Assembly: GCA_017591395.1 (NCBI GenBank)
Contig: WEDG01001497.1
Span: 186,001-250,000 of the forward strand
Direction: 5' to 3'
DNA: 64,000 bases
Source: Schistocephalus solidus
Taxonomy: Eukaryota > Platyhelminthes > Cestoda > Diphyllobothriidea > Diphyllobothriidae
Shown here: positions 8,230-58,845 of the stretch, piece by piece
Layout of the letters: the number at the start of each line of letters is the position of its first letter
Numbering within the stretch: position 1 is the first letter of the stretch
The notes under the pieces: model-generated
Database searches by the model: none
What the model was told of the DNA's origin: nothing
The model's input: the letters and a program-made list of their open reading frames with translations, nothing else
Made by a program: the position numbers and the translations under genes

Positions 8230-10560
8230 GGGCATGAATGCTCATGAGGGGGCGAAAACTGCCGAGGATGTGAGCTGCTTGACTCAGCTCACAGTCCATC
8301 ATCCAGCACAACGATCTTCTCTCCCCCCCCCCCTTATTCAGTATTCTTATTTGCCTGGGAAATATGATTAGTCACACGAGGAGCGTGCTGTCCAAACGCT
8401 GCATCCAATGTCATTATAGTCGACCAACTTGCCAAGTAGTGCTCACACCAGTCACCACCAGCGATGGTAAAACCGCGTTAATCATCACATCAACTACAAC
8501 CAGCCGGGCAAGTGGCTGGTTGCTGTCTGTGATAACGAGTATTAATGGGAGTCAGAAAGGTCAGGTGAACAAAATTCTTGTTCTCGCTGTCGAGGCTCCT
8601 GCCCGATGCTTTTAATTTCAGCCCCACCCGTCCGTTTGTTTATGAGGAAAGAATGAATGGAACACGTCTTCCCATTAATTTCTGGACACCTGAAACTTCC
8701 CATGACCTCTGTTTTGCGGCCACCGTTATGATATTACAGAGTGGCGGATCATGTTACCGACAAGCATCCCTGTGAAACTATCGTCTATTCTCCTCCCCGG
8801 ATGCTAACCTTCTGCCAGTATGCAATATCATGTGTCTATGTTATATGGAACAGCTAAAAAAGTGGCATATCGTCTTAGACAAGTAAATCAAAATGTTTAA
8901 CCTCTTCATCAGCCTCGCACCGATGCCATTTACGACTTACTTGCGGTTGGGATGAGATGTCGAGTTCAAGAGTGAAAGGACATACGCGGATTGGTCGGTA
9001 GTTGTTTAACGAATGCTTTAATTCCTAGTCACCAAAAGAACAGGTGACGAGCACCAAAAAGGAGAAAGTTTCCTGCGCTGATCAAAAATCAGCAGTGCTC
9101 AACTGATGAGCGTCGAGTGGAACACAGTTAATCTGTTGAGTAAAACTGAAGCTGGCAAGTTTAGGATTTTCCAAAACAAATCAATTTGAGTGCAAGCGTT
9201 ACATTAGTGGAAGCATTCTGAATGCTGGGACACTGCCAGGTTTTGCTTAATTCACGCAAAGTTCCAAAACTTTGGAAAGAAATTTACAAATCAAAAATAT
9301 TTCGCTCCAATGACTCGCTAAATGTATCAAGTGGCATAATCTGACAGACAAACAGTAAACCAAGATGAGTATATCCAGTAAAACTGAACATAAACAGTCT
9401 TACGAAATTACCCGATACTAGCTCGGAGCCAATGTATTGCAAGATGTATTGCGATGAAAATATTCCGCAGGTTCAGTTTTTTTTTCAACGTAATATTCAG
9501 TGTAAAATAGTCCAGCAGGGTCAGGTTCCACGAGATTGATAGTTGTGAGGACTTCTAGCAAACGCCGCCAGTGCTCTTAATCCGGTCCCACCTGAGGTTG
9601 ATGAATACGCGAACCTTACGGCTAACTGGTGAGCATGCAAGACTGCTCAGGGCATAACCAACCACTGGACCACGAGACAAACTGACTGTTTTTTTCGACA
9701 GCCAATCAGACGGCTCATCAACCAACTAATCATGCCAACCAATAGAAAGTGCGAAAATCAAGGTAGGCAGCGTGAAACTCGAAAAAGTCAGTGGCGGCAG
9801 CATCGGTGTCGATGGCTTTCACTGGAAGCCTAACCTGATTATGATAGAAACTTTTATGAAAGAAACAAACAAGAATAATCTGTTAACCACTCATGAGCCA
9901 CTCATATGTCCAAGTTTACTTAGATAGGCCCCAAAATCCAACATAATTACTGTCTGCGAGAATTAAATAAATATAGTGTAGCATTCTCTTTGGATTTTCA
10001 GTCGATAGTGCTTTGGCTATATTCGCACGCATGAGAAAAAACTTCACGAAAGTCAGCACATTTTCGATTATTTTATAGCAAAGCGTTTGAAATAAACCTA
10101 AACACGAAAATACTTATAAGCTAGAACTGCGGAAGATTGGGTTGCATAACATTGATTAAACGATGCTTCTTGTTAAAATTATCTCCACAGGAATGGATCC
10201 GAGTATATAACTTCCCGCTGTCCACCTCTGCGCATATTTAGCAAACAAACTGCATATAGGTCATGCGATGCAGAGAAGGGTGTTAATTTTAAGATGGTTG
10301 CATTACACCTAATTTTATTTTATTTATTTATTGCCAGTTTACCTATGGTACTCAACGACACTCAACTAGTCCGTTTTAGGCTATTTTCAGTTTAAAGCAG
10401 GAGGTGATGTGCCGCAAGCTCTCTAGAGGCCCCTCAAGTTCGTAAACACCAACACCAATACTACAGAGCTGGTGAAATTTTTGGCAGCGCAAAATATTAC
10501 TTGCTGATAAGAGTAGAGGGGCACTCACTCGACCGCAACTGACAGGGCAACAAGTTCCTG
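8230..10560. other. gene-less stretch
   Basis: No gene recognised. A run of about 11 C lies at 8323-8333, and a short perfect 8-bp hairpin (GTGAGCTG ... CAGCTCAC) at about 8270-8292. Open frames of 83 and 65 codons (8364-8615, 8578-8775) have no recognisable content. The rest is AT-rich anonymous sequence. Confidence 0.4.
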
Positions 10561-10564
10561 GCCT

Positions 10565-10690
10565 AACGGTTAACTTATAACCCACGGATCATGCGTTCGA
10601 GCCTCAGGGGCTGCAACTCCTGGGTTTGGATATGGCAGGCTGCTGACAGCTAAAAGCCGGAAATGGGCATTATAGTTTCAGTTACCAATG
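10565..10690 (+). repeat. tRNA-headed SINE-like repeat, family 2, diverged copy
   Basis: A tRNA-like T-arm/B-box (GCGTTCGAGCC) at about 10592 is followed by a body that aligns with the repeats at 16.1 and 37-38 kb: CTGGGTTTGGATATGGCAGG, then CTGCTGACAGCTAAAAGCC, then GGAAATGGGC. The head is eroded on its 5' side. The hammerhead-like box reads CTGCTGA (10640-10646) rather than the CTGATGA of the array copies. Confidence 0.6.
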
Positions 10691-16019: not shown

Positions 16020-16300
16020 TACTTACTGACTTTACCGAAAAAGAAGAGGGAGACCGGAATGGTCATTTCTGGCTTATTAGCCGTCAACAGCCAGACATAC
16101 TCAACCACAGGTGTTACGGCACTCGAAGCTCGAACGCGTGATCTGCTGCTTAGAAGTCCAAAGTTCTAACTCACTGCGCCACGAGCTCGTTTTATTTTCG
16201 GTTGCGATTGGGAATATTAACAATGGTAGATGGGCGCTCACCGATCGCTTACCGGACTCACCCGTCCAGTTGTGCCTTTGGCTAACCCTAGAGTCCCATT
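16020..16300 (-). repeat. tRNA-headed SINE-like repeat, family 2, dimeric copy
   Basis: Read on the minus strand, the order is tail of one unit, linker, tRNA-like head, body of the next unit. This is the same junction as in the 36.9-38 kb array. The head includes GTGGCGCAGTGAGTTAGAAC and TTGGACTTCTAAGC, which resembles a tRNA-Arg(TCT) anticodon arm, followed by GCGTTCGAGC. The body keeps GACGGCTAATAAGCCAGAAA (minus strand, about 16066-16086). The 5' box is CTGTTGA instead of CTGATGA. The matching linker shows that tandem organisation is not confined to the 37-kb array. Confidence 0.65.
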
Positions 16301-16304
16301 CCAA

Positions 16305-16445
16305 CATTCCGTGTCTCTGTCGGTAGTCATTCTGCCTATATCACAAGCCGCTCTACAGCTGCTGGTGGGGCTCTAAAGTGAACCGCTAGGCCAAACGGGA
16401 CGAGTGAGTACGTAACTGATCGGTGAGCGCCCATCTACAACATAT
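16305..16445 (+). repeat. family-2 repeat tail, opposite orientation
   Basis: TCTGCCTATATCACAAGCCG through GCTGGTGGGGCTCTAAAG to ACTGATCGGTGAGCGCCC matches the tail of the inverted copy at 38046-38180. It is tail-to-tail with the minus-strand copy at 16020-16300. This generates a 19-bp perfect inverted repeat, AGATGGGCGCTCACCGATC at about 16221 and its complement ending at about 16437. Confidence 0.6.
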
Positions 16446-34520: not shown

Positions 34521-36960
34521 GAAATGGTGTAAGAATTATACTTTTAGAATAATGCACTACCTTCCTCCTAGTCTGGTGTAAATACGAGTACTGCCAATCG
34601 TATGTGATGCATGCGTTTCAGCGGGAATACACGAATATGGACGACAGACACACAGCAAAAAGTGGTTGGCGGTATAACGGAAGAGTTGAGCAATCGCCTC
34701 CCAGCTGAATTTGTTTCTACAGATTATTTTGTGGCTATTTGCATAAAAAAGGTACTCCTGCCTTAGCAGAAAATTTCTAACAAAGTGGAAAATTGCCGTT
34801 CCGGTGAAATTCGCCTAGCCGATCAGCGATGCAGATAGTTTTGCCTACCTGAAAGGGAGCATTCACCGCTAAACATGACAGAGAGTGTTCCGTTTCAGTG
34901 AAAATTTCCGGAATGTAGATTACCTCCATGCAAACCTGAATAAGTTTCCGGCCGACAGCCTGCTCATGAAGAAACAGTTAGTTCCTTGAAACGCGATGCT
35001 CCGTTTTGTTATTCACGCTGCTTACAACGAAGTATAATAATCAGCAGTGCACGCAGCGCGTGGTTCAGAGGAAGAGAGAACTGCGCTTGATCAGCATTGA
35101 GTGATCAGCATCCGAGTGGTTGAAAATGCAATACCCTTGAAAGGCCGCCTATCATTTGACTAGGTTGCCGGGGCATTATCGTAAATGGACCGGAATTTCG
35201 CAGCATGTATTTGCGTCGGATAGTTAAGTGCGTGAAATTGATGAGTGGAGGTGACTCATGGATTGATTTAGGCCTCCCGATTGGACCAATGATAAATGCA
35301 TAGCTGACGAGGCGTGGTTGTCGTTTGGGTTGAGTTAATTGCACTTACACACTGAGTCGCAATGGCAAAAGATGTTAGGGAAACTGACATAGTTAGTTTT
35401 TAGCTATATGAATTGTCACTTGGTTAAATATAACATGCGCACCAGGAATATCCGAGACGCGACCCCGTGACTCAACAGGTAGAGCCTTTTGTTTAATGAA
35501 CAAAAATGTCTTGATTCGAACTTCTGGCGTTTCCTCACTGCAACGGAAATATGGACGGAAAATGACAGTGCATAAATACTGATTGATTTATCATACTGAC
35601 AACAAGGTGCTCGTCAAATAAACCATAACCGCGCGCCATCCGCGATCCTAGCATGTAGTGCCCCCTGGTGGCAGGTTTATCCAGTCTGACTAAAAAAAAT
35701 GAGAATGTGTCCTTCTGCCTATATCTGTCATTATTTTTAACAGTTTTCTGCTTTACTTTGTTCGCCGGCGCCTGGCTGCCTTCCGAGGCTCTTAATCGGA
35801 GCGCAAAGTCAAGGCATAAAATTATGATAGCTTAATAAATGACAACTGCATGAGAGTAAGTTAACATACACGGTTTTCAAATATCCCTGAAAATTTCGTG
35901 GCTGTCAAAAAAGGCATGATTAAATATTGGTTGTACGGGAAGAATCGTCTCATTAGGAGATTCAAATAAGTGTGAAGGAAGTTTATCTCGGCAGAAGTGC
36001 ATATATTGCAACTTAGAAGCTTGGAATATCTAAAGTCTGTAATGAGCATTGGAAATGCATGCGCCAAGCATGCTTCGATCATAACGAGACGCAATCTGAT
36101 ATCCTTGGGGAGTTTTATGACAGGTCTAATTTGAAGAGATTTAGAAAAAAATTTCATTTTTCGGCATCGGTGTAAAAATAATTACTGTTTCCGCTTTAAT
36201 TGTTCACGTATTACACAATATTCCCATCGTTTAGTTTGTCGCAAAACTTTGCGAGCGAAATTTCTACGAATAAATAGGAAGACAGGCATATCAAGACCTA
36301 TAATTCGAAGCAAAGAAATTCCTTGGGAAACTTTAAGTAATTTTTACGACACTGGTTCCCCAGTTCATCATCAGAATTGTGGTAAATTTGCACCCTAAGT
36401 ATAGGGTTGGCTATTTAGGTAAAAAAGAAACCAGTTACAAGATCCCAGGTAACAGTTGAAATGTGGTGTATTGTGGCCAATCAAGAAAATCGGTCTCTGC
36501 ACGCCTACACGAACACCAGTTGTCTGTAAAGAGACGAGACCACTTGTCTCAAGTTGCCATGCGTAAAATAGAAATCGGGCAGAAATATGCATGGGACAAA
36601 ACTTGCGTTGTTGGCTTCTGCCAATCGAAGAATGGCTAGGAATTCATAGAGGCCAGTCACTCTGATGAATCATGCATTAATCGGTAGATCGAATTAGATG
36701 CTGTATACAACAATCTCAAAGAAAAGTGGACAAGGCTGTAGCTAATCCAAATGAAATGTCACCCACAATGACAGAAATTGGCAAAGACTGAGTCAGCAAT
36801 ATCGATTTTTCCGACGTATTTGCAAATTTTACTGTTTTTGCACACTAACCATAAGTCTGACTACGACTTGGGAAACCAGCGTCAAAAAATTTACTTAATA
36901 AAGTTTCTTAATGGTTCCCGAAGAATTTAATTGCTTTGAACCATACTACTTGGGATGCAT
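34520..36960. other. gene-less stretch with one tRNA-like segment
   Basis: No gene. A tRNA-like segment lies at 35458-35530. A weak Penelope-type end string on the minus strand lies at about 36340-36390. Otherwise the sequence is anonymous. Confidence 0.4.
35458..35530 (+). repeat. tRNA-like segment, probable SINE head
   Basis: GACCCCGTGACTCAACAGGT followed by AGAGCC gives a D-arm-like start. A TTTTGTT/AACAAAA hairpin sits where the anticodon arm should be, and GATTCGAAC resembles a T-loop. The T-stem pairs poorly and there is no acceptor stem complement, so I do not call a tRNA gene. Confidence 0.35.
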
Positions 36961-36967
36961 ATCTTCC

Positions 36968-36987
36968 AATATATATATATATATATT
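36968..36987. repeat. (AT)n at left edge of the repeat array
   Basis: Twenty bases of alternating AT immediately precede the truncated first unit of the tRNA-headed array. A matching (TA)n sits at its right edge (38027-38042). Confidence 0.95.
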
Positions 36988-37255
36988 ACCAAAGTTTGCG
37001 GGTTCGAATCCCAGGTGTTCCACACTTGGGATTGGGTATGACTGGCTGATGACGGCTAATAAGCCATAAATGGCCATTCCGGTCTCCCTTGTCTTTGTCG
37101 GTTCAACATTATCAACATATGCTACACGTCGCTATGCGACCGCCTGTGAGGGCTCTTGTCTCAGTTCCAGGGCACAACAAAACATAATTGTTCATTAAGC
37201 AGATCGGTGAGCCGCACACTATCATCATATTCCCGATCACAACCGACAAAAACAA
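36987..37255 (+). repeat. tRNA-headed family-2 unit 1 (5'-truncated)
   Basis: The unit starts inside the tRNA-like head at ACCAAAGTTTGCGGGTTCGA, straight after the AT run. It then has the full body and tail, ending with the linker ACAACCGACAAAAACAA. CTGATGA is intact at 37046-37052. The GAAA box reads TAAA. Confidence 0.85.
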
Positions 37256-37560
37256 CGAGCCCGTAGCTCAATGGAAGATCGTTCGACTCAAATAACAAAG
37301 GTCGCGGGTTCGAATCCAGGTGTGCCACACTTGTGATTGGGTATGACTTTCTGATGACGGCTAATAAGCCAAAAATGGCCATTCCGGTCTCCCTTGTCTT
37401 TGTCGGTTCTACTTAAAAATTATATGCTTCACGTCGCATAGCGACCGCCTGCGAGGGCTCTAGTCTGTTCTCCAGGGCACAACGGAACATACATGTTCCT
37501 TAAGCAGATCGGTGAGCCCCACACTATCATCATATTCCCGATCACAACCGACAAAAACAA
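37256..37560 (+). repeat. tRNA-headed family-2 unit 2, 305 bp
   Basis: The head CGAGCCCGTAGCTCAATGGA has A-box character, and GGTTCGAATCC at 37307-37317 is a good B-box, so RNA polymerase III transcription is plausible. The body carries CTGATGA (37351-37357), the GGCTAATAAGCC hairpin and AAAA in place of GAAA. The base pairs just before CTGATGA are TT instead of GG. The tail includes CGCATAGCGACCGCCTGCGA and AGATCGGTGAGCCCCACAC. Confidence 0.88.
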
Positions 37561-37866
37561 CGAGCCCGTTGCTCAATGGTAGAGCGTTCGACTCAAATAC
37601 CAAAGGTCGCGGGTCCGCATCCCAGGTGTGCCACACTTGGGATTGGGTATGACTGGCTGATGACGGCTAATAAGCCAGAAATGGCCATTCAGGTCTCCCT
37701 TGTCTTTGTTGGTTCTACTTAAAAATTATATGCTTCACGTCGCATAGCGACCGCCTGTGAGGGCTCTAGTCTGAGCTCCAGGGCACAACGGAACATGCAT
37801 GTTCCTTAAGCAGATCGGTGAGCCCCACAATATCATCATATTCCCGATCACAACCAACAAAAACAA
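37561..37866 (+). repeat. tRNA-headed family-2 unit 3, 306 bp
   Basis: This is nearly identical to unit 2. CTGATGA at 37657-37663 and GAAA at 37678-37681 are both intact, with GACTGG before the first box and GGTCTCCCTTGTC after the second hairpin. The B-box is mutated (GGTCCGCATCC). The head looks like a tRNA with an intact D-arm (GCTCAATGGTAGAGC), but its anticodon stem does not pair. Confidence 0.88.
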
Positions 37867-38025
37867 CGAGCCCGTTGCTCAATGGTAGAGCGTTCGACTC
37901 AAATACCAAAGGTCGCGGGTTCGAATCCCAGGTGTGCCACACTTGGGATTGGGTATGACTGGCTGATGACGGCTAATAAGCCAGAAATGGCCATGCCGGT
38001 CTCCCTTGTCTGTGTCGGTTCTACT
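37867..38025 (+). repeat. tRNA-headed family-2 unit 4 (3'-truncated)
   Basis: Head and body are complete: GCTCAATGGTAGAGC, B-box GGTTCGAATCC, CTGATGA at 37963-37969, GAAA at 37984-37987. The unit stops at GGTTCTACTTAAA, where a (TA)n run begins. The tail is absent. Confidence 0.85.
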
Positions 38026-38045
38026 TAAATATATATATATAAGAA

Positions 38046-38275
38046 TGGTAGTTGTTTGCTCACCGATCGGTTACAGGACTCACTCGTCCCGTTGTGCCTT
38101 CGTGTTAACTCTAGAGCCCCACCAGCAGCCACAGAGCAGCAAGTGATATAGGCAGAATTATATTGCCGACAAAGACAAAGGGACTGGAATGGCCATTTCT
38201 GGCTTATTAGCCGTCACCAGCCAGCCATGCCAAATCCCAGGTGCTGCGGCACCCGAGGCTCGAACACTCATAATG
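38046..38275 (-). repeat. inverted family-2 copy beside the array
   Basis: On the minus strand, GCTGGTGACGGCTAATAAGC, CAGAAATGGCCATTCCAGTC and TTTGTCTTTGTCGGCAATAT align with the array body. The tail (TCTGCCTATATCACTTGCTG, CTGGTGGGGCTCTAGAG) is of a different subtype, shared with 16305-16445. The 5' box is CTGGTGA. Array and inverted copy are separated only by the (TA)n run, so transcripts crossing both could fold back. Confidence 0.8.
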
Positions 38276-52323: not shown

Positions 52324-53112
52324 TCAGAGCCTCATCTGGGAGATGACGAGGCGGTGATCTGTCCAACAATCGGCATCGCGGATCGTCTTGGTTACCAGCA
52401 CGTCCTGTCGATCTCGCCTCCGGACGAGAACATAGTCCAGCAGATGCCAGCGCCGCGACCGAGGGTGCATCCACGGGGCCTTCTCCCGCGTCGGAAGGCG
52501 GAAGAAGGTGTTGGTCAGCAGGAGACGGTGTTCCGAAAAAGTTCGCAGAAGAAGTAGGCCATTAACGTTACAGCTAACCAGACCGTGGGGACCCAGCACT
52601 CCCTGCCAGGCAGTTTGGTCCGTCCAAACTTGGACATTGAAGTCACCAAGGACAATTAACTTGTCCTCTTTCGGCACAGTGGCCAGCAGTGCGTGCATGT
52701 CCTCGTAGAATTTGTCCTTCGCCGCATCAGAGCTCGTCAATGGGGGAGCGTAGGCGCTGATGATGGTGGCCAACTGGTCTCCCCGAAAGGGAAGGTGGAG
52801 ACTCATCAGGCGATCATTGATACCCTGCGGCAGACAGGGCAGACGTCCTACGATGTATTGCCGGATGGCAAAGGCAACACCAGCGTCGCGTCGCTCTACC
52901 TTTGGCCGGCCGCTCTAGAAGAAGGTGTTGCCGGCACCAACCTCCTCCAACTGACCCTGCTCAGAGAATCGGGTCTCACCGAGAGCAGCAATGTCCACCT
53001 TGTAACCCGCCAGTTCCCGAGTAACTAGCTTCATCCTTCGTTCCAGCCGGTTGCTCCTAGGATTGTCTAAAAGGGAACGAACATTCCAGGCTGCTAGCGT
53101 GAGTGGAATCAC
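52324..53112 (-). pseudogene. AP-endonuclease domain of endonuclease/RT element, one nonsense codon
   Basis: This is the best-preserved coding sequence in the window: one frame of about 263 codons, broken only by a TAG at 52915-52917 where relatives have a TGG tryptophan (TFFW). Endonuclease/exonuclease/phosphatase motifs are all present in order: LAAWNVRSL (Asn), GETRFSE (Glu), ISAYAPP (Tyr), LGDFNV (Asp/Asn, about 52632-52646 on the plus strand), [10 protein letters not shown] and TDHRLVIS (Asp-His) just before the TGA at 52324. In intact relatives this domain nicks target DNA to prime reverse transcription. No ATG lies near the start; the frame opens upstream of a GTG. After PQGKLN-like codons the sequence passes into the 3'UTR. 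Reverse transcriptase and zinc fingers are deleted. Confidence 0.85.
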
Positions 53113-57219: not shown

Positions 57220-58845
57220 CGTCTATTTCTTCTCAAATTACCGTTTTCAGAGGGGTAAACTAACATCGTCAGACAATGGCGCATAAATGAATGTCAAAGA
57301 AACTAATTAGACTAAGCTGAATGCCACAGGCTAAATTGCATGTTGAGTAAAATAAGACTCGTAACAGGTGCAGCAGTTGCAAGGCAGAAAAATACAGGTA
57401 GTTGCACGTTAACGTCTGTGCACACTCCACTGTCTCGTTCCTCGGAAATAAATAGCCCCATTTCGCCCATATACTCTAGACCAGTAATCTTCCACAACCA
57501 TTCTGACGATGCTCTGGGCAATATGGTTTTTTGCAAACAGTCCACTTTGAAATTAATCTTTTCGTAAAAAATGGGTTATTCAGCCATTATGACACAAAGA
57601 AACCTTGTGTTTCCAAATGCGTTCATTTAACGGGACCTGCTCTTTCATGCCCGCGGGATGAGCATGCCCGGTAACACGATCCGAGAGGGTACTTCCAGCC
57701 CAGTTAAGATTTCTAATTGTGACCGACAAAACAATGATGCTTTTAGGTTGAATTATAGATAATGACAGAACGTGCGTTTGGATTTAGATCCCAAAAACCA
57801 TGGTTTCGGTAAGACTGGCGGATGAAAGGTACTAGTCCAGAACTGGCCCTCTGCCTGGTGACTGCAACTACGGCGACAATGCCTAAACATTTTGAATTAA
57901 AGTCAAAGCTCCACCCAGAAGGCCAATACGGATAATCACTAAGATGCCCCGTTTAATTTCTCATCCGCCACCCTTATCATCTCGATAAAGGCCAGGCATT
58001 TAAACTAATAAACAACCCTTTCTTAACTTCAACATTTGGTATTTTCAACTCGAAAAATCGGGAACTTTAAACCGTTTCAGACAAATCGTTCCTATTTCGG
58101 TGACAGCATACTAACTGTGGTTAAAATTTGACTGACAGTCTCATCAGCATTTGGTCCAACTATACGCAGTTTCGACAAGAATTAAATATTAAAATACCGA
58201 GGTTTAATCCTAAGACCTATGTGCTTATGGGCCGGAGGACTCAACAATAAATATATAATTACTGCTTGGTAATGAGTGTACTCAGTAGTATTAATAGAAC
58301 GTTGTATTGATCTCACGTTTGAAAGTAACCTTTCGTACCGTGCAGTATTTCTTCCATGCATCATTTGAGCACATCTAAAAGACACAACTTTTGCCACTTT
58401 CCCGCGGTGTTCAGAAAATCATAGAGATCACTAATAACACTGCTACTTGCACAGGCAGTTTGGCTTAACCTCAACGCCTAATAAGTACAAAATGTTGTGG
58501 CACAAGCCCGATCATTTGGTTGCATCCACATCGGCAAAACGGTGGGGGAATGAGTCACTGAGAAACAATGTGCCGTTTGCCTGCCTGTCCTGTCACCTCC
58601 AGGTCACCTCATTAGCCACCCTCTTTTTAGAAAAGGGGCACAACGCGTTTATTAATTGACCAAGGCAGAGTAAATAACTTTGCTCGACTGTCCCATGGGA
58701 TGCTGCACAGTGGCTCTGAAGCACGCTGACTAAAAAAAGTTGCAGTAAAATAGACTATCTGTGAGCTGAAACTGTATATAAGTTCTGTATTGAAGATTGT
58801 GGCTGAACCACATAAAGGAAAGCAGAACAATAGAAACAGCCTTAT
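57220..58845. other. gene-less stretch
   Basis: No gene recognised. Frames of 70-77 codons (57312-57567, 58182-58397, 58447-58659) have no known motif. Confidence 0.4.

Follow-up and report, generated by a model that had tools for sequence, protein, structure and literature searches.

A hammerhead-like motif within a central domain common to two tRNA-headed SINE families of the tapeworm Schistocephalus solidus

The window analysed here, 64,000 nucleotides (positions 186001-250000) of contig WEDG01001497.1 from the tapeworm Schistocephalus solidus, carries on its forward strand a tandem array of four SINE units at 36987..38038, delimited by TRF, by blastn with one unit and by nhmmer. TRF assigns the array a period of 306 bp and 3.4 copies, in agreement with the tandem units of about 305 bp that a first-pass annotation had proposed. 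The units stand head to tail at 36987-37255, 37256-37560, 37561-37866 and 37867-38035; the first and fourth are incomplete, with unit 1 lacking the front of its head and beginning at about unit position 36-38, inside the head. Runs of (TA)n flank the array at both ends. The annotation had extended the array to 38275, but the segment at 38007..38268 is no further unit: nhmmer and head and tail scores identify it as an inverted, minus-strand copy of a second SINE family (family O), which differs from the array units in head and tail and carries CTGGTGA at 38191-38220.

Each unit contains a 71-nt central domain (37032-37102, 37337-37407, 37643-37713 and 37949..38019, forward strand), and within this domain lies a stretch whose parts follow the order of a type I hammerhead ribozyme. 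These hammerhead-like stretches occupy 37040..37093, 37345..37398, 37651..37704 and 37957..38010 on the forward strand. CTGATGA is present in all four units (at 37046, 37351, 37657 and 37963); the core bases are intact in units 3 and 4, the two (CTGATGA at 37657 and 37963) that also keep GAAA. Unit 1 has TAAA and unit 2 AAAA in its place, and unit 2 reads GACTTT where the other tandem units read GACTGG. The initial statement that every unit carries the full motif consequently holds for CTGATGA, but not for GAAA, nor for GACTGG in unit 2.

Further SINE copies are scattered through the window. A diverged O-head copy with CTGTTGA, in front of which stands another unit's tail, occupies 16032..16296 on the minus strand (blastn, nhmmer, head and tail scores); adjoining this copy at 16296..16444 is a partial copy in inverted orientation, on the forward strand (nhmmer). 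A diverged partial copy with CTGCTGA lies at 10564..10679 (forward strand; blastn, nhmmer), and nhmmer detects a faint partial core at 57799..57850 (forward strand, E 0.0013).

The tRNA-like head is best seen in unit 4 (37867..37931, forward strand), where it includes A and B boxes; similar heads begin at 37256 and 37561, and a shortened one at 36987. Searches with the Rfam tRNA model score two heads at 25.1 bits (37877-37931) and 22.7 bits (37562-37617), both below the gathering score of 29, and ARAGORN calls no tRNA in the array heads. Together with the occurrence of GGTTCGAATCC in the consensus head, these sub-gathering matches uphold the earlier description of a tRNA-like head with a pol III-type box. 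With such a head and a high dispersed copy number (25,927 core matches in the genome), the element has the properties of a tRNA-derived SINE, and the array belongs to an abundant S. solidus family of this tRNA-headed kind. RNA polymerase III would start transcription from the head, at its A and B boxes, and because the consensus unit of the array's own family (family Y) contains no TTTT stop, a transcript may extend across several units. A partner LINE would make the copies, and arrays would lengthen either through unequal exchange or when multimeric RNA is reverse-transcribed.

The copy number was obtained by searching the assembly (603.7 Mb, 8019 contigs) with the pattern GGGTATGN{45,65}TTTGTCGG, which leaves the whole hammerhead-like motif free; it yields 25,927 matches, whereas the reversed pattern yields 10. 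The exact 54-mer GACTGG...CTTGTC occurs at 9,025 places. In the genome-wide consensus, CTGATGA and GAAA are present together with the GGCT-AATA-AGCC hairpin and the two further arms. The order of CTGATGA, hairpin, GAAA and second hairpin read from the array is therefore that of the family at large, and a consensus deprived of CTGATGA, GAAA or the hairpin parts, the outcome that the first-pass annotation had named as contrary to its reading, is not what the genome holds. Further arrays exist, with runs of 7, 10 and 10 matches in three regions (L027, L039 and L041). A read-through of the SINE core matches five database proteins, each of them an S. solidus prediction (83-94% identity), and the single protein matching the opposite-frame read is again an S. 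solidus prediction. We found no SINE copies in viral or prokaryote contigs, and none in a phage collection, where two tRNA-gene matches were the only hits.

Conservation and pairing were scored on 108 distinct, ungapped cores, made by pooling 60 rows of 68-nt length from the listed genome matches with 51 local copies; the resulting counts exclude indel-bearing copies. The genome rows derive from 76 taken from the 100 matches listed of 25,927, with identical rows entered once and some longer insertion rows omitted. The local copies number 63 (62 full length), of which 11 were dropped for more than 25 substitutions; L027 and L041 together supply 27 of the 63, and L039 another 8. Because the regions yielding them were placed around earlier listed pattern matches, they form no random sample, and they are enriched for cores with deletions. 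In this set 101 of 108 cores keep an A at A6, the position altered in the three diverged copies of the window, and it is also A in 10 of 10 rows beginning GGGTATGGCT, the form of the second family, among the 100 matches listed of 25,927 (the heads of these rows are nearer the second family in 8 cases and ambiguous in 2). The alteration noted in the diverged copies is thus real locally but is not a trend of the family; since A6 is mostly A genome-wide, we regard it as a small-sample effect, and a loss of A6 in older copies is rejected.

Sorting the 63 local copies by head and tail assigns 42 to family Y, which includes the window array, and 7 to family O, leaving 14 undecided. The two consensuses are identical at 69 of 71 sites (97%) across the central domain, at 63 of 76 aligned sites (83%, with 12 gap columns) in the heads, and at 73 of 104 aligned sites (70%, with 9 gap columns) in the tails. 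The family O head presumably resembles tRNA-Arg. The O consensus is soft because it derives from only 7 copies, A6 being A in 3 of them; O-form cores (the GGGTATGGCT rows among the matches listed) support it. One mosaic copy was seen (L046), which joins an O head (score 68 versus 23) to a Y tail (198 versus 33) across the core and stands in tandem with a Y unit. The shared core and this mosaic together indicate that the domain can serve as a site at which the families exchange ends, and to judge from these alignments the domain would be an exchange site, a constrained element, or both.

Conserved central domains common to several tRNA-derived SINE families are familiar from the CORE, V and Deu groups, among others. 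A comparable arrangement is described for HaSE1 and HaSE2 of Helicoverpa, tRNA-derived families with a common central domain (PMC3272025). The tapeworm elements resemble all of these in having a tRNA-like head followed by a central domain common to families with other ends. They differ in host, in their hammerhead-like base order and in the central sequence itself, which is set apart from the others by description. What appears to be new, at the level of sequence, is the placement of a hammerhead-like motif inside a 71-nt domain common to two SINE families with different ends. Whatever the motif proves to be, the sharing of a 71-nt block by two families clearly exemplifies modular evolution of SINEs in a tapeworm.

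How far the resemblance to a hammerhead exceeds coincidence can be gauged with a relaxed descriptor, composed after the sequence was seen, that permits a mismatch at 10.1/11.1 and one bulge in stem III. The descriptor matches units 3 and 4 in the window, and we count these two as a single event, the units being repeat copies of each other; when run on 338 Mb of random sequence that preserves the dinucleotide steps of the window, it finds 14 matches, or 0.005 per 64-kb window on both strands. The hammerhead-like arrangement therefore exceeds chance. The type I core CUGANGA...GAAA is present in the genome-wide consensus and in both family consensuses, and G12 is kept in 96 of 108 cores. Core bases are altered in 6.1% of cores, compared with 9.0% at base-matched sites (p 0.005), a post hoc comparison in which the core occupies the best-aligned middle of the element and much of the gap is due to the most variable sites (8, 25, 28, 30, 49 and 58). 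Sites variable between subfamilies fall outside the core bases, as expected of a constrained ribozyme. The retention of all hammerhead core bases in the consensus, the lower variability of the core and the rarity of the descriptor by chance all count against regarding the motif as a look-alike or relic and not a working ribozyme.

These same observations bear on the origin of the domain. It may descend from a type I hammerhead SINE of the Sm-alpha kind whose ribozyme disappeared through decay of stem III and of the 10.1/11.1 pair, while the domain itself survived. We hold such a descent to be somewhat unlikely. The core bases and the order of parts in both family consensuses fit it, as does the lower variability of the core, and flatworm SINE-like elements with hammerheads are on record (PMC2770079, PMC8490949, as described there). 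Against it, stem III is not better but weaker in the O form (C42-A48), which looks the older of the two. Homology between the SINE core and the hammerhead-like, canonical-pattern loci of the genome was also rejected, local alignment scores for the 7 of 18 loci compared being 19-26, where shuffles gave means of 19-20 and maxima of 29-35.

Both descent from a ribozyme and ribozyme function must also be weighed against the pair that closes stem II. In hammerheads the G10.1-C11.1 pair is near-invariant, and it is present in 13 of 13 hammerheads that we used for model training. The SINE consensus has C.A at these positions. The C-A mismatch that the first-pass annotation had flagged as a weak point is the prevailing state, with CA in 88 of 108 cores, TA in 14, CG in 1 and other combinations in 5. 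In 154 genome matches both positions are occupied by G or C; among the 100 of these that were listed, C10.1 occurs in 100 and G10.1 in none, a pattern that weighs against an ancestral hammerhead closing pair. The core and all drawn pairs are intact in 19 of 108 cores, and 10.1/11.1 is also paired in 2 of them.

Covariance models do not recognise a type I hammerhead in the SINE units. In gathering mode, Rfam reports no match anywhere in the window, a result that carries no evidential value, because this mode also gives no hammerhead match for 17 viral-contig loci in which the canonical pattern is present. Run to E 10 on 121 bases of unit 4, the check that the annotation had recommended, Rfam again returns no hammerhead; a viral-contig hammerhead used as a control (141 bases) is found in E-value mode at 28 bits (E 0.00018). 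A box C/D snoRNA reading of the unit (sR30, 8.2 bits, E 5.3) is at chance level and was discarded. We also built a model from 13 viral-contig hammerheads, chosen with a pattern in which stem II is fixed as GTCC/GGAC. It scores units 3 and 4 at 9.4 bits with the strands mispaired and unit 1 at 6.9 bits; a chance-level match at 36657 reaches 9.6 bits, just above units 3 and 4. Among hammerheads kept out of training, six reach 43.1-55 bits, of which four share the GTCC/GGAC training pattern and two (48.9 and 43.1 bits) do not; others kept out of training score 28.8, 24.3 (at a locus cut by a contig end) and 11.5 bits. The pattern CTGATGAGN{8,24}CGAAAC has 294 matches in the S. solidus genome, compared with 31 for its reverse, and among 18 such canonical-pattern loci our model gives 17.2-24.5 bits for 7, at most 13.5 bits for 7 and no match for 4. 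It is therefore only a partial judge, since it ranks some of the genome's own canonical-pattern loci no higher than the SINE.

The predicted fold likewise departs from a hammerhead. In the 81-nt consensus core, pair probabilities are 0.001 for stem I, 0.076-0.084 for stem II and at most 0.004 for stem III; the hammerhead stems can be drawn only with a bulge in stem III, as the annotation had anticipated, and an internal loop in stem I. For the 54-nt stretch, the hammerhead structure has a free energy of -7.3 kcal/mol, compared with -13.6 kcal/mol for the minimum. A different hairpin, CUGGCU/AGCCAG, dominates the predicted fold (0.67-0.73), raising the prospect that the domain is kept for this element, for example through binding of a protein or reverse transcriptase. 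We consider this quite unlikely: the consensus-core fold is no more stable than that of shuffles (z -0.4), and a sign of covariation in the hairpin is not upheld genome-wide. In the 108 cores, pair 13-30 has 5 double changes where 1.5 are expected, and 4 of the 5 restore a pair. Across the genome, A30 occurs in 6 of the 100 listed of 151 matches with T13, close to the background of 9 of 108, and the compensated hairpin was accordingly rejected as the true structure.

Compensatory changes in the hammerhead stems, which the annotation had recommended looking for, appear as small excesses at two pairs and not at the most variable ones. Pair 39-51 has 5 double changes against 1.7 expected and pair 12-54 has 3 against 1.4, 2 of them being pairs in each case. 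The two most variable pairs across the 108 cores, C9-G58 (formed in 76 of 108; 3 double changes versus 2.1 expected) and C42-G48 (formed in 69 of 108; 6 versus 3.3), show neither compensation nor an excess of double changes. Missing compensation is weak evidence, because SINE copies decay once inserted. In another array (C35:66944-73043), CCAAT and TATC, each present in 8 of the 11 units listed, break drawn pairs of stem III and stem I, and the array was amplified nonetheless.

Taken together, the missing closing pair, the low model score, the favoured alternative fold and the lack of clear covariation disfavour a ribozyme, and the type I hammerhead function proposed in the first-pass annotation is left unsupported by a C.A closing pair, a misfolded 9.4-bit match, stem probabilities of at most 0.084 and uncompensated variable pairs. 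We conclude that, most probably, the array consists of an ordinary SINE whose central domain is shared between families, and the hammerhead drawn within this domain is a look-alike or a relic and no working self-cleaving ribozyme. A non-canonical hammerhead that works with a C.A closing pair, perhaps solely in dimeric or longer array transcripts, is in our judgement very improbable. TTTT-free tandem arrays could yield the multimeric RNA it calls for, and type I hammerheads with a weak stem III are described as cutting as dimers (PMC6155905); opposed to it are the predicted stem I and stem III probabilities, which pertain to a single folded consensus core, the alteration of G12 in 2 of 4 window units and 12 of 108 cores, and the small number of cores that keep core bases and drawn pairs.

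Sm-alpha of Schistosoma has a tRNA-type promoter, one of the features on which the first-pass annotation based its comparison with the array. Sm-alpha and Sj-alpha are described as SINE-like elements with a type I hammerhead (PMC2770079, PMC8490949), and the tapeworm SINE resembles them, on those descriptions, in its flatworm host, SINE-like character, very high copy number and hammerhead order of core parts. Unlike them, it lacks the closing pair, the model score and the fold, a comparison that extends over the motif only. Metazoan retrozymes are tandem repeats that contain type I hammerheads, and platyhelminths are among the hosts named for them (PMC7229834). So far as that account goes, the tapeworm repeats match them in being tandem, non-coding and a few hundred bp long; the tapeworm SINE differs from them in its tRNA-like head and in containing no hammerhead recognisable by model or fold. 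The titles and abstract openings of top-ranked papers mention no hammerhead SINE of a tapeworm, and a literature search for hammerhead ribozymes together with Spirometra found none.

A broader reading would make the 71-nt domain a decaying or repurposed hammerhead, a tapeworm relative of Sm-alpha that lost its closing pair and perhaps still cleaves weakly as a dimer, with tens of thousands of copies keeping the core and two families swapping ends through it. We judge this unlikely. If the domain did arise by decay of a hammerhead, it would illustrate how a SINE can outlive the ribozyme it carried, and hammerhead SINEs would extend from flukes to tapeworms. If it is no hammerhead, CTGATGA, a hairpin and GAAA in a tRNA-headed flatworm repeat are insufficient for a hammerhead call.

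Other hammerhead-like loci of the genome came to light in the course of the pattern searches. A dispersed family represented by six loci (L062, L063, L064, L069, L070 and L071, on contigs C234, C593, C757, C46, C614 and C1489) has the motif CCCA-CTGATGA-GCC..GGC-GAAAC..TC-TGGG followed by a conserved TTTTAGYTAGTACC; from their sequences these look like candidates for real type I hammerheads. Our own model scores the six at 17.2-24.5 bits and a seventh locus grouped with them (L065) at 8.0 bits, and Rfam gives sub-gathering matches in L069 (Hammerhead_1, 19.3 bits) and L071 (Hammerhead_3, 21 bits). In a second canonical-pattern family (L056-L061, on contigs C538, C1083, C913, C177, C163 and C757), the motif reads CTGATGAGGGGTTCGAG...GAATCCGAAAC, stem II resembles a pol III B box, AATAAA often lies shortly downstream and TATAAA lies upstream in three; GTC directly follows GAAAC in L057 and L061. 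Own-model scores for this family are 7.7-19.4 bits, with no match in L059, and we assume that it may be the end of an LTR or Penelope-like element. A third such family (L066, L067 and L068) is well conserved over 240 bp and has no match to our model. Viral contigs contain extra hammerheads outside the pattern, two in L004 (at 3566 and 4845) and one in L005 (at 8442), scoring 28.8-48.9 bits. Elsewhere in the window, an ORF at 52324-52914 on the minus strand encodes an endonuclease/exonuclease/phosphatase domain (PF03372, E 7e-07) and is 81% identical to an S. solidus protein; it represents a type of retroelement that occurs in many copies in both S. solidus and Spirometra.
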